From Pontixanthobacter gangjinensis (GTDB lineage: Bacteria; Pseudomonadota; Alphaproteobacteria; Sphingomonadales; Sphingomonadaceae): a stretch of 64,000 nucleotides of DNA. The DNA lies in assembly GCF_009827545.1 (NCBI RefSeq), contig NZ_WTYS01000001.1, positions 186,001 through 250,000 on the forward strand, written 5' to 3'. Each line of letters starts with the position of its first letter. Position 1 is the first letter of the stretch. Below are positions 29,787 through 48,482 of this stretch, piece by piece. The notes under the pieces were generated by a model. It searched no databases. It was not told the origin of the DNA and saw nothing but the letters and a program-made list of their open reading frames with translations. A program made the position numbers and the translations under genes.

Positions 29787-32117
29787 TTAGTCTTCAATAT
29801 TGCCGTGCTTCTTATCACGGGTCGGTTCGAACATCCCGTCATGAACGAAGCCGATGGGCTGAACCTGCGCAGCGCGCGTTTTCAGCTCGCCCCGCATCTT
29901 TTTATATTCGTCCTCCATCTTTTGCGTGACTGTGGCGCGCGAATCTTTAAGCGCCTCGGAAAAATCAGCTGCGGTGACTTGTTTCACGTCACCGCCAGCA
30001 CGGCGCAGAGCGTTGAGACCGGCACGGCGCACGACATCTTCCAGATCAGCCCCTGTGAAGCGCGCGGTTTTGCTTGCTACATCAGCCAACTTCACATCCT
30101 TGGCGAGAGGCATGTCAGCGGAATGAATAGATAAAATTCGCTCGCGCCCCTTTTCATCGGGCGTTCCAACATAGACCAACTCATCGAACCGGCCTGGTCT
30201 CAGCAAGGCAGGGTCGACCAAAGCAGGGCGATTGGTTGCCCCGATGACAATCACCGATTGCAATTCCTCCAGCCCGTCCATTTCAGCAAGGATGGTGTTG
30301 ACCACTCTTCCGGTGACTTGCGGTTCCCCTTGCCCACTACCGCGAGCGGGAACCAGACTGTCAATTTCGTCGATAAACACAACGCACGGCGCAACCGAGC
30401 GAGCACGCTGGAACATCCGGGCAATCTGCTGTTCGCTTTCGCCATACCATTTCGACAGCAAATCGGAGCTTTTCATCGAGATGAAATTGGCTTCGGCCTC
30501 CTTCGCCACCGCTTTCGCTAGCAAGGTCTTGCCAGTGCCGGGAGGACCATAGAGCAGGAAGCCCTTGGCTGCGCGAATACCGAGCCGCTCGAATGCTTCA
30601 GGGTTCTTAAGCGGGAGTTCAATGCCCTCTTTGAGCTTGTCTATAGCATCATCAACGCCGCCAATGTCAGCCCAGCCGACATTGGGCATTTGCACCATTA
30701 CTTCACGCATCGCGGATGGTTGCACACGCTTGAGCGCCGACAGGAAATCTTCCCGCGTCACACACAGATCGTCGAGCACATCTTGCGGGACCGTGCGTTC
30801 ATCCAAATCCAAACGCGGCATAATTCCGCGCACCGCATCAATCGCCGCTTCTCTGGCGAGCGCCGCAATGTCGGCGCCGACAAAACCATGCGTTGTCTTG
30901 GCAAGCTCGTCCAAATTGACCTTATCGCCGAGCGGCATTCCACGGGTATGAATCGCTAGAATTTCGCGGCGCCCCTTCTCATCAGGCACGCCGATGATGA
31001 TTTCGCGGTCGAAACGGCCAGGACGGCGGAGCGCTTCGTCCATTGCATCGGGTCGGTTGGTTGCGGCAATAACCACCAGATTAGACCTAGCTTCCAACCC
31101 GTCCATCAGCGTCAGCAATTGAGCAACTAGCCGCTTCTCGGCCTCGCCCGGTACTTGCGTGCGCTTGGGTGCGATCGAATCGATTTCATCAATAAAGATG
31201 ATTGACGGAGCAACCCGAGTGGCTTCCTCGAACACTTCGCGCAGCTTTTTCTCGCTCTCGCCATAGCCCGATCCCATGATCTCTGGGCCGTTAATGGTGA
31301 AAAATTCCGCGTCGCTTTCGTTGGCGACCGCTTGCGCAAGCCGAGTCTTACCGGTGCCAGGAGGGCCGTGCAGCAGCACGCCCTTGGGCGGATCAACACC
31401 AAGGCGAGTGAATAATTCAGGATATCGCAGCGGCAATTCGACCATTTCGCGCAATTGCTGGATCGTGTCACCGATGCCGCCGACATCATCATAATTGACG
31501 CCCGCACGCGGATCGCGCGGCTCCTCGAATTCGGCCCGCAATTCGACCTCGGTGTTCTCGTCAATATGAACGATACCCTTGGGAGTGGTTGAAACAACGC
31601 TCAAACGTATTTGAGTAAGCGCGTAGGCTGGCGCATTGAACATACGCTGCACTTGTGGCGGCATGTTCTGGACCGGCTGCTGGCCCGTGGTGGCCACTAA
31701 GTCGCCTGTGACAATCGGTTTGCGGAAGAAATTGCGCTTGAGCGCCTGGGTCGGACCTTGCAGTCGCATTTCGCGCTGCGCCGGTGCGAAAACCACTCGC
31801 GTGGCTGCTTGCGATTTGCTCACGCTAATCTTTACATGCTCTCCAGATCCCGCTTCGGCATTGCCGCGTTGCAGACCGTCGAGCCGGACGACGTCGAGCG
31901 ACTGATCCTCGTCATAGGCGGGCATTGCGATCGCTACCGTGCTTCGCTTGCCAGTAATCTCGACCACGTCACCTTCAGTAATGCCAAGTTTCTGAAACGC
32001 AGAGCGCGGCATTCGCGCAATACCTTGACCGCTTTCTTCCTGCCTCGCTGCTGCGACTTGCAACCGCACGCTTTTGTCTTTCTTCTTTTCTGCTTCAGTC
32101 GCTTTAGCGTTGGCCAT
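29787..32117 (-). CDS. CDC48/VCP-like double AAA+ ATPase
   Basis: A 776-residue protein unfoldase-like ATPase. An N-terminal double-psi barrel domain (1-205, with [20 protein letters not shown]) is followed by two AAA modules, each with GPPGTGKT (near 250 and 525) and FIDEIDS, and conserved ATNRP sensor 1 plus [10 protein letters not shown] / [10 protein letters not shown] arginine-finger regions. The architecture is that of archaeal VAT and eukaryotic p97, rare in bacteria but known in sphingomonads. [10 protein letters not shown] at 32117 is preferred over a start ten codons upstream. Substrates unknown. Confidence 0.93.
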
Positions 32118-32283
32118 CGGGCATCTGCTTTCTGTATATCGGAACAAATAGAAAGCTCTAGCTAGGTAGCGTATGGCAATGATGCAAATGACGATGCAAT
32201 CCAGAGCCCCGCGCAGCCCACAAACTCAGCCAGCCTATGTTGCTGCGCGGACTGAAGAAAACGCACCCTTACTTGCCAGACAA

Positions 32284-32347
32284 GAAAAAAGCCCGGTCGT
32301 TGCCGACCGGGCTATAAAAGTTTGGGAGAGGATGCCTGAAAGGCGCT
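32284..32347 (-). ncRNA. Small RNA candidate resembling the suhB/MmgR family
   Basis: On the minus strand a short transcript is predicted: hairpin GCC-TTTCA-GGC (32344-32334), unpaired CU-rich ATCCTCTCCCAAACTTTTAT, then a perfect nine-pair terminator GCCCGGTCG-GCAA-CGACCGGGC (32312-32291) followed by TTTTTT. A possible promoter is TTGCAC (32379-32374), 18 bases, ATTTAG (32355-32350). No gene ends upstream on this strand, so the terminator needs its own transcript. The CU-rich anti-Shine-Dalgarno-like loop before the terminator resembles the alphaproteobacterial suhB/MmgR RNAs. Family membership is by memory of the pattern, not by search. Confidence 0.6.
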
Positions 32348-32400
32348 ATCTAAATGGCGGATAGGCGGTTTTTGTGCAAGTGCGAAAAGAGCATGGTCAG

Positions 32401-32616: not shown

Positions 32617-33336
32617 ATGAACAAGATTTTTCCTGATGCTGCAACTGCTCTCGAAGGCGTATTGCGCGATGGCATGCTAATCGCATCCGGCGGCTTTGGA
32701 CTGTGCGGCATTCCGGAGCGCTTTCTCGATGCGATTCGCGACAGCGGCGTGTCTGGACTTACTTTTGCCAGCAACAATGCCGGGATCGACAATGAAGGCA
32801 TCGGCAAGCTGCTCCGCACTAAGCAGGTCAAGAAAATGATCGCGTCTTATGTCGGCGAGAATAAGGAATTTGAGCGGCAGTTCCTGGCTGGCGAGCTCGA
32901 AGTCGAATTTTGCCCGCAAGGTACATTAGCCGAACGAATGCGCGCTGGCGGCGCAGGCATCCCGGGTTTTTATACGAAGACCGGAGTCGGCACCCAAGTT
33001 GCCGACGGCAAGGAAGTCAAAAGCTTCGATGGGCCAGACGGTCCGCAGGATTATATCCTCGAGCGCGGAATCTTCGCGGACCTTGCGATCGTTAAGGCAT
33101 GGAAGGCGGACGAGACCGGCAATCTGGTGTTCCGCAAGACTGCGCGCAATTTCAATCTGCCTGCCGCAACCTGCGGCAAAATTTGTGTGGTTGAAGTCGA
33201 AGAAATCGTGCCGGTAGGCTCGCTTGATCCCGACTGCATCCATCTGCCCGGTGTGTATGTGCAACGAATGGTGGTGGGCGCGCCCTATGACAAGAAGATC
33301 GAATTCGTCACCACACGCGAACGTGCCGATGCCTAA
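32617..33336 (+). CDS. scoA: 3-oxoacid CoA-transferase subunit A
   Basis: A 239-residue alpha subunit of a succinyl-CoA:3-ketoacid CoA-transferase. MLIASGGFGLCGIPERFLDA, TFASNNAGIDNEGIGKLL and the GGAGIPGFYTKTGVGT segment are typical. It activates acetoacetate with succinyl-CoA in ketone body or polyhydroxybutyrate use. GGAG lies ten bases before ATG; a stronger AAAGGAGGT lies 20 bases further up. The beta subunit is separated from it by an inserted lipoprotein gene. Confidence 0.95.
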   Translation: MNKIFPDAATALEGVLRDGMLIASGGFGLCGIPERFLDAIRDSGVSGLTFASNNAGIDNEGIGKLLRTKQVKKMIASYVGENKEFERQFLAGELEVEFCPQGTLAERMRAGGAGIPGFYTKTGVGTQVADGKEVKSFDGPDGPQDYILERGIFADLAIVKAWKADETGNLVFRKTARNFNLPAATCGKICVVEVEEIVPVGSLDPDCIHLPGVYVQRMVVGAPYDKKIEFVTTRERADA

Positions 33337-33351
33337 CCGGAAGGCTTAACC

Positions 33352-34473
33352 GTGAAACCAGCCTCTCTTCGTCTTGCCGCCTCTCTGGCATTGTTACCAT
33401 TGCTCGGCGGCTGCGTCGCGGCGCTGATTCCTGTTGCCGCTGGCGGGGCAATGTTTGGCAAGGATAAAATCGGATTGGGCGACAGCAGCGATGATCCTGT
33501 TCAGGCAGATCCAACTGTGATTGTCGAGGCAGCCATTGCTGCGAAAGGATTGGCTGAAGCAACCTCCGAAGAAACGGTTGCCGATCCTCTGCCCGCTGCC
33601 GAGCTGCTAGCAGAAAATCCTACAATTGCCGGGGCTTTTGCAGAATCAGCCCCAAATGCAGTGGCCGTGAAGAGCCAACCTTCAAAGACCACCGAACTTC
33701 CCGCCAGGTTGCCGAAAACAACTGGGTACAAAGAGCCATCGGTCGCAGGAGCACCTACTGCGGAACCCCGTTTTGAAGAAGCATTTGCGCCCGTCCAAGC
33801 GGTTTCCATGCCGATCGTTGCAACAACAACAACAACCAGCACGCCGCCGATAACCGCAGGTGTGACGCAGTCCGCACCAACATACGGGCCGACAGATTTC
33901 AGGGCATATGACGCACTGTATAGTTATGTCGATTCGCAAGCGAGGCGTGATCCTGTGCAAAGTTCACGGCAATCGGCATTGCTTGCAGCCCCAGGCACGC
34001 TCAGCCCGATACGGACCGATTGCAGCATCCGGCCACCAGCAGTCTTAATTGATCTGGATCCAGAGAATGCCGTTTTTGACCCAGGTGTTGAGGCACAGCC
34101 CAACCCCGCGCTTTCACAATTGCTGGCATCGCTGCGAGCGCAAGAGATTGAGGTTTTCTGGATTTCCGAGCTGTCTGCGATTCAGGCAGGTGCCGTGCGC
34201 AAGGCTTTGGTAGCAAGCAGCATGGACCCCGTCGGGCGTGACGGATTGTTGCTGATGCGCCGGATCGAGGACCGCAAACAAGCGCGGCGCAAAGAACTGG
34301 CCGAAACGCACTGCTTATTGGCGATTGCTGGAGATACACGAGCCGATTTTGACGAGCTGTATCTTTATCTGAAAGACGCCAACACTGCGCAACCACTTGA
34401 ATCGTTGATTGGAGCTGGCTGGTTCATAACGCCGCTTCCGCTCATCACACCAAATCAAAATCCCGAAGGATAG
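33352..34473 (+). CDS. Lipoprotein with degenerate HAD/acid phosphatase-like domain
   Basis: A 373-residue exported protein starting at a GTG with GAAGG upstream. LPLLGGC is a clear lipobox. Residues about 60-190 are low-complexity, with a run of six threonines. From about 225 the sequence follows class B/HAD acid phosphatases: AVLIDLDPENAVFD, EVFWISEL and CLLAIAGDTRADFDELY fit motifs I, II and III/IV. Motif I reads DLDPEN instead of DxDxT, so phosphatase activity is doubtful. It lies between scoA and scoB in the same orientation, with gaps of 15 and 6 bases. Function unknown. Confidence 0.65.
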   Translation: MKPASLRLAASLALLPLLGGCVAALIPVAAGGAMFGKDKIGLGDSSDDPVQADPTVIVEAAIAAKGLAEATSEETVADPLPAAELLAENPTIAGAFAESAPNAVAVKSQPSKTTELPARLPKTTGYKEPSVAGAPTAEPRFEEAFAPVQAVSMPIVATTTTTSTPPITAGVTQSAPTYGPTDFRAYDALYSYVDSQARRDPVQSSRQSALLAAPGTLSPIRTDCSIRPPAVLIDLDPENAVFDPGVEAQPNPALSQLLASLRAQEIEVFWISELSAIQAGAVRKALVASSMDPVGRDGLLLMRRIEDRKQARRKELAETHCLLAIAGDTRADFDELYLYLKDANTAQPLESLIGAGWFITPLPLITPNQNPEG

Positions 34474-47913: not shown

Positions 47914-48285
47914 TCAGCCAATCAAAGCAATCGCCTTAAACAACCCGGTCAGCGCAAATGGGAGACCGATGGCCAACAACCACAACAGCGCAAGATCTCG
48001 CCGGAAAGCTGGTGCCAGCGATGGGTCGGACGCCTGTGCATCGCTTAGATTGCGCCAGCGACGCTCGAAGGAGCGGCAAGCCGGGATGATGCCGACCACA
48101 AGAACCACAAGCGCAAAGAGGGCCAGCGATTTGAAACCGGTTTCTTTCATCGCACCGACAGTCGCAAAGATATGCAGCGCAGTATAAATAATCAGCGCAT
48201 AGGCGACATGATCGCTCATGCTCTTACGCCAATCGCGCCCGCGCAATTTTGCGACCGGTGCAGTATCTTCCAAAATCTTGTTCAT
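47914..48285 (-). CDS. Hypothetical membrane protein
   Basis: A 123-residue product beginning MNKILEDTAPVAKLRGRDWR, preferred because GGGAGAGG lies upstream; a longer frame to 48357 lacks a site. Three hydrophobic helices (about 28-48, 52-75, 100-120) mark it as integral membrane. Family not recognised. Confidence 0.7.
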   Translation of the reverse strand: MNKILEDTAPVAKLRGRDWRKSMSDHVAYALIIYTALHIFATVGAMKETGFKSLALFALVVLVVGIIPACRSFERRWRNLSDAQASDPSLAPAFRRDLALLWLLAIGLPFALTGLFKAIALIG

Positions 48286-48482
48286 GCGTCCTCTCCCCAG
48301 AGTGGCATTTTCCCTCAATTCGATTCGAAGTGTCACAGATTTCCGCACAAAGTTCAAGCGCAGTAACCAAACCGAAACCGGCGATGTGTTCTATCAGCAA
48401 ATATGCTGGTCATGCAGGAATCCTGCCAATTTAGGGCAAACGGGGCTTTTCAAGGCGTCCTGCAATGCTACATGGTGGAGTT

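Follow-up and report, generated by a model that had tools for sequence, protein, structure and literature searches.

The minus strand of the window (the whole 64,000-nt stretch of DNA analysed) carries at 32345–32285 a small RNA gene of about 61 nt, of the RF00519 (suhB/mmgR) type by covariance search and fold. It is flanked by a Cdc48/VCP-like AAA ATPase gene on the same strand and by a divergent gene for a ScoA-like CoA-transferase subunit (Table 1). The ATG of the AAA gene, at 32117, stands about 167 bases downstream of the RNA. Among named records, the AAA protein is 86% identical to that of an Erythrobacter MAG and 87% identical to that of an uncultured Sphingomonadaceae bacterium, its best matches there, which points to an Erythrobacter-like sphingomonad as the probable source. 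Between the two CoA-transferase subunit genes lies a 373-codon frame (33352–34473, plus strand) that begins like a lipoprotein and matches no Pfam family.

From 5' to 3', the RNA consists of a small hairpin, unpaired AUCCUCUCCCAAACUUUUAU and the terminator. The terminator stem-loop, GCCCGGUCG-GCAA-CGACCGGGC at 32312–32291, has nine perfect pairs, with a flanking A-U as the tenth, and is followed by a U6 tail (32290–32285). The preliminary description had noted a nine-pair, GCAA-looped, U6-tailed terminator pointing leftward where no minus-strand gene ends, with a CU-rich single strand, a short hairpin and a weak promoter upstream. All are present: the terminator at 32312–32285, the single strand at 32331–32322, the hairpin at 32334–32344, and the promoter (TTGCAC, 17 bp, CATTTA) with elements that recur in relatives. 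Added to this is the AAA gene, which begins downstream on the same strand.

Table 1. Features of the RNA locus and adjacent copies in other genomes.
Feature	Position	Strand	Basis
Cdc48/VCP-like AAA ATPase gene, downstream neighbour	29787–32117	-	PF02359, PF02933, PF00004 (profile run on 29787–32114)
Candidate separate AAA-gene promoter (TTTGCA ... CCTAGCTAG)	32158–32188	-	read by eye
Predicted mature SuhB-type sRNA, ~61 nt	32285–32345	-	RF00519 match, fold; predicted start
Intrinsic terminator, ten-pair stem, GCAA loop, U6	32285–32313	-	all ten pairs covary, 98 copies
Single-stranded recognition core CCUCUCCCAA (anti-Shine-Dalgarno)	32322–32331	-	near-invariant in 98 aligned copies, partly via selection pattern
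5' hairpin GCCU-UUC-AGGC	32334–32344	-	folds
RNA promoter, -35 TTGCAC (32379–32374), 17 bp, -10 CATTTA (32356–32351)	32351–32379	-	positions conserved, 52 AAA-linked and 47 other copies
TTCGCACTTGCAC element covering -35	32374–32386	-	conserved
Upstream inverted repeat TTGCA-N5-TGCAA	32401–32415	-	conserved at -71 to -57
CoA-transferase subunit (ScoA-like), divergent neighbour	32617–33336	+	PF01144
Adjacent suhB-type copies	L145 2501–2577 and 2692–2769; L143; L119 and L154; L121 and L158

The suhB/MmgR-type assignment of the preliminary description is borne out by the covariance search with RF00519, which matches 32275–32351 with 49.8 bits (cut-off 41, E 3e-7) over the full length of the model (positions 1–77 of 77). 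No further Rfam family reaches its own cut-off in the whole 64,000-nt window. In the whole genome (2.89 Mb, one contig) the locus is the sole RF00519 match over the cut-off; 15 lesser matches, listed at E up to 10, score at most 25.3 bits. Folds and alignment place the RF00519 architecture in the window copy: 5' hairpin, unpaired C/U stretch and Rho-independent terminator. Folding of the 131-base region gives -38.4 kcal/mol, versus -25.9 ± 3.0 in 200 shuffles (z -4.2). Consensus scans alone are unconvincing: one terminator-like site versus 0.7 expected, and no promoter above the threshold, the RNA promoter falling below it. The covariance match and the conservation in relatives place the RNA far beyond chance. 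Membership in RF00519 is firm; the observation is real, and the RNA adds a branch to an already known family.

RF00519 matches over the cut-off occur in all eight genus genomes and in 48 of the 59 genomes of the family sample (G000 and G007 belong to both samples). At E ≤ 1e-4 a match is found in 51 of the 59 and is absent from eight. Pooling genus, family sample and seven named records gives 112 matches, 99 of them core copies, defined by the pattern GCC..GGCAT(C/T)CTCTCC; 98 distinct copies were aligned. Dropped before alignment were 13: seven loci with a CCUCCCU core, three copies of another C/U-rich RNA (L002, L018, L019), one with a slightly divergent core (L016), and L188 and L189. Core copies are present in 49 of the 59 family genomes, at least two in 20 and at most five. 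In some family genomes suhB-type copies stand side by side, about 190–1020 bases apart (Table 1).

The C/U stretch AUCCUCUCC is nearly unchanged across the 98 aligned copies. AGGCAUCCUCUCC is constant except for one base in one copy, an invariance arising partly by construction, because the selection pattern includes most of it. The terminator played no part in the selection; all ten of its pairs vary on both sides, and none of 500 shuffles reaches its covariation score. Over both helices 95.7% of cells are paired, versus at most 57.2% with partners shifted by 1–3 columns. RNAalifold gives 13 pairs, ten with compensatory change. The hairpin whose conservation the preliminary description had left to be checked is thus kept in relatives through compensatory changes; the 5' hairpin is without covariation support because it is nearly invariant.

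Promoter positions are numbered from the first G of the 5' hairpin. AAA-linked copies (52) and the remaining core copies (47) have in common TTGCA at -71, a half resembling TGCAA between -61 and -57, TTCGCANTTGC-like sequence covering the -35, and a -10 of the CANA type. The recurrence of these elements at unrelated loci argues for their function. A loose promoter pattern allowing three mismatches was not useful, giving 172 sites in the window's genome versus 69 for the reversed control.

The motif YGCRNYGCR is the centre of the Sinorhizobium meliloti PhaR (AniA) motif; PhaR binds the mmgR promoter in vitro, and its loss raises MmgR (PMC12542648). At least one such motif stands within 90 bases upstream of 17 of the 52 AAA-linked and 23 of the 47 other copies; base shuffles give means of 0.7 and 1.0 and maxima of 3 and 6, respectively. 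It starts exactly at -19, over the -10, in 30 of 99 copies (10 AAA-linked, 20 other). A review describes PHB granules as promoting suhB transcription in Sphingopyxis granuli, with no mechanism given (PMC6563040). The PhaR-type box over the -10 of 30 copies suggests a route for this effect. Within 100 bases upstream of the window copy and of the seven other genus copies the motif is absent; PhaR control of the window copy is unsupported, and the PhaR link appears, from the motif, as a pattern of the family that the window copy does not display. The PhaR gene is found in 57 of the 59 family genomes, and its presence is therefore uninformative. G022 and G027 have no PF05233 match yet carry suhB copies, and one copy of G022 (L169) is boxed at -19. 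The window's genome itself encodes PhaR and two PhaC-type genes. Before its phaR (L191, ~1850–1910), a TGC/GCA-rich stretch holds TGCACTGCA, which by eye matches the S. meliloti PhaR centre, as would be expected for self-control.

Candidate targets were sought as GGGAGAGG-N2-14-ATG. The window's genome has 18 such sites versus two for the reversed-pattern control, and the eight genus genomes have 135 versus 35; since the reversed pattern does not resemble a Shine-Dalgarno sequence, ordinary ribosome-binding sites account for some of the excess. From the GGGAGAGG places 104 loci were read, and 58 sites with a frame of at least 60 residues were kept. In seven of the eight genus genomes, CCTTGGGAGAGG stands three bases upstream of the ATG of a short-chain dehydrogenase gene (PF13561), whose ribosome-binding site is complementary to the RNA core over 10 contiguous bases; the dehydrogenase coordinates in the window's genome are C1:1079608–1079621, minus strand. 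The G004 dehydrogenase (91% identity) has AATGGAGAGG in its leader and keeps only GGAGAGG. The site may partly reflect a slowly changing leader, because other parts of the leader are also conserved. The duplex with the dehydrogenase leader is -27.1 kcal/mol versus -18.2 ± 3.3 in 500 shuffles, the best of which reaches -31.7, hence it is not extreme; the strongest duplex among 49 long window frames is -23.8 kcal/mol. In G005 the neighbours of this gene resemble, by eye, acyl-CoA dehydrogenases and a transporter. To judge by its start site, the dehydrogenase gene is the best candidate target, and a testable one. SuhB of S. granuli is said to need targets other than those for tetralin, because it is conserved in strains without tetralin genes (PMC6563040); given that expectation, the dehydrogenase start site offers a concrete candidate in another genus. 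Five of the eight genus genomes, the window's own not among them, have a site at a lipoprotein-like gene, and TonB-receptor-like genes, recognised by eye, occur a few times. Within the window, GGGAGAGG stands four bases before the ATG of a 123-codon frame (48283–48297, minus strand), a possible SuhB site seen in this genome only.

Across the family, TTGGGAGAGG-N2-14-ATG gives 88 sites in 39 of the 59 genomes versus eight for the control; one of the 88 is a suhB copy itself, matched on its reverse strand (G044). Thirty of these loci were read, and several sites open no long frame. Tracking of the RNA core type by target sites is rejected: mean sites per genome are 1.5 with a C-core (28 genomes), 1.5 with a U-core (19) and 1.0 without a core copy (10). 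Most single sites should accordingly be regarded as ordinary strong ribosome-binding sites. The Hfq gene of the window's genome lies outside the window (L362 1405–1962, plus strand; C1 ~1854428–1854985). Its product is a single protein of 185 residues in which two Hfq domains stand in tandem; a limited literature search returned nothing clearly on tandem-domain Hfq.

The window RNA is very probably a stand-alone, trans-acting, Hfq-type suhB/mmgR sRNA that blocks translation at ribosome-binding sites. Transcribed from its own promoter, it would end at the terminator as an RNA of about 61 nt. The exposed CCUCUCCCAA would pair, probably aided by Hfq, with ribosome-binding sites rich in purines, such as UUGGGAGAGG, just before start codons; in the presence of a better carbon source, this pairing would keep uptake and catabolic genes from being translated. 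Antisense action of the window RNA at ribosome-binding sites is likely on this analysis; its transcription, Hfq binding, repression, trigger and every target are predictions.

The position of the RNA would also suit a 5' leader or attenuator of the AAA gene, with one promoter, readthrough of the hairpin and the free RNA as a by-product. The RNA precedes a Cdc48-like AAA gene on the same strand in 52 of the 112 matches, with a gap of about 36–283 bases, and the AAA-linked copy occurs in all eight genus genomes and in 38 of the 59 family genomes. YTAGCT, part of TTTGCA...CCTAGCTAG, is missing from 25 of the 52 gaps, including nine of the ten shortest (≤59 bases), where there is little room for a second promoter. 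The separate promoter-like element does follow the terminator in 27 of the 52 gaps, the window's among them (background: 0.75% of random 130-base stretches). Moreover, 47 of the 99 core copies are without AAA linkage in the flank examined (1.5–2.5 kb at most loci; farther linkage would escape the count), a point in favour of action in trans. It is the unpaired core that is near-invariant, and no alternative antiterminator is seen. A leader or attenuator is disfavoured and improbable, though less so where gaps are 36–59 bases. Linkage also varies on the other side: a divergent ScoA-like gene stands less than 500 bases away at 28 of 99 core copies, and a LysR-type-regulator-like gene, recognised by eye, takes its position at 18 loci. 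A scan of named genomes with the AAA protein gave 80 loci, of which eight sphingomonad loci (L021–L028) were read further; in the record of Sphingopyxis microcysteis the AAA gene is present and no window-type RNA occurs within the 14 kb examined.

Still less probable is an RNA acting chiefly on another sRNA or a protein rather than on mRNAs. Target statistics in the family genomes are weak, and Caulobacter CrfA, in a sponge relationship with SisA, binds the alpha-r8 core, but both SuhB and SisA act directly on mRNAs (PMC12559287, PMC6563040). That the hairpin is due to chance, or belongs to a dead, untranscribed copy, is hardly credible: simple scans show neither a strong promoter nor an excess of terminators, and against this stand the covariance score, the compensatory changes and the family-wide conservation of the promoter.

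A trans-acting sRNA of this kind has described relatives. SuhB of S. granuli TFA binds the 5' UTR of thnR and, together with Hfq, reduces thnR translation (PMC6563040). It is alike in its sphingomonad host, in being RF00519-type by name and in the presence of an Hfq gene in the window's genome; its length is reported as 61 nt, and about 61 nt is predicted for the window RNA from hairpin to U-tract. This comparison is by description, with a shared core assumed. MmgR of S. meliloti belongs to the same Rfam family and likewise has a 5' hairpin, a C/U single strand and a terminator. It differs in being 77 nt long, in having the alpha-r8 10-mer where the window RNA has a variant core, and in being repressed by PhaR, whose box the window copy lacks (PMC7143759, PMC12542648). 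SisA–D of Caulobacter crescentus are likewise a multi-copy family with an unpaired C/U core pairing near start codons, in SisA just upstream of one (PMC12559287); TonB-receptor-like genes are, by eye, among the candidate sites in genus and family genomes too. The cores differ (UUUCCUCCCU versus AUCCUCUCCC), and SisA adjoins an N-formylglutamate amidohydrolase gene, whereas the window copy adjoins the Cdc48-like AAA gene.

The RF00519 model alignment sets AUCCUCUCCCAAAC opposite GUUUcCUCCCUAgAC; the window core is a variant of the alpha-r8 10-mer, and the RNA is therefore filed under RF00519, outside alpha-r8 in the narrow sense. The textbook alpha-r8 core, CCUCCCUGAACC (CCUCCCU), occurs in seven of the 112 matches (L017, L020, L179, L185, L186, L187, L190). 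At all seven an N-formylglutamate amidohydrolase gene lies directly downstream and convergent by tblastn (PF05013 confirmed in the four loci tested), and most alpha-r8 RNAs are reported to adjoin such a gene (PMC12559287). The window copy has none adjoining; its neighbours are the AAA and ScoA genes. Six of the seven genomes with a CCUCCCU-core locus also have a window-type copy; the two are therefore paralogous lineages, the window type being a separate branch. Tentatively, and with considerable doubt, sphingomonads may hold an FGase-linked alpha-r8 lineage and a SuhB-type lineage with its own core, up to five copies and many PhaR boxes, the latter passing storage-polymer status to catabolic genes; the window copy would be its stable AAA-linked form, the PhaR box lost or never had. 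The weaker matches examined in the window's genome (L002–L008) hold no CCUCCCU-type core, and L003–L008 appear by eye unrelated. L002 (C1:293655–293732, minus strand), with L018 (G004) and L019 (G007), represents a further candidate RNA, C/U-rich and likewise provided with a terminator; its core is UUCCUCCUGCGAACAACAC, its RF00519 score of 25–30 bits is below the cut-off, and it is alike in the three genus genomes.
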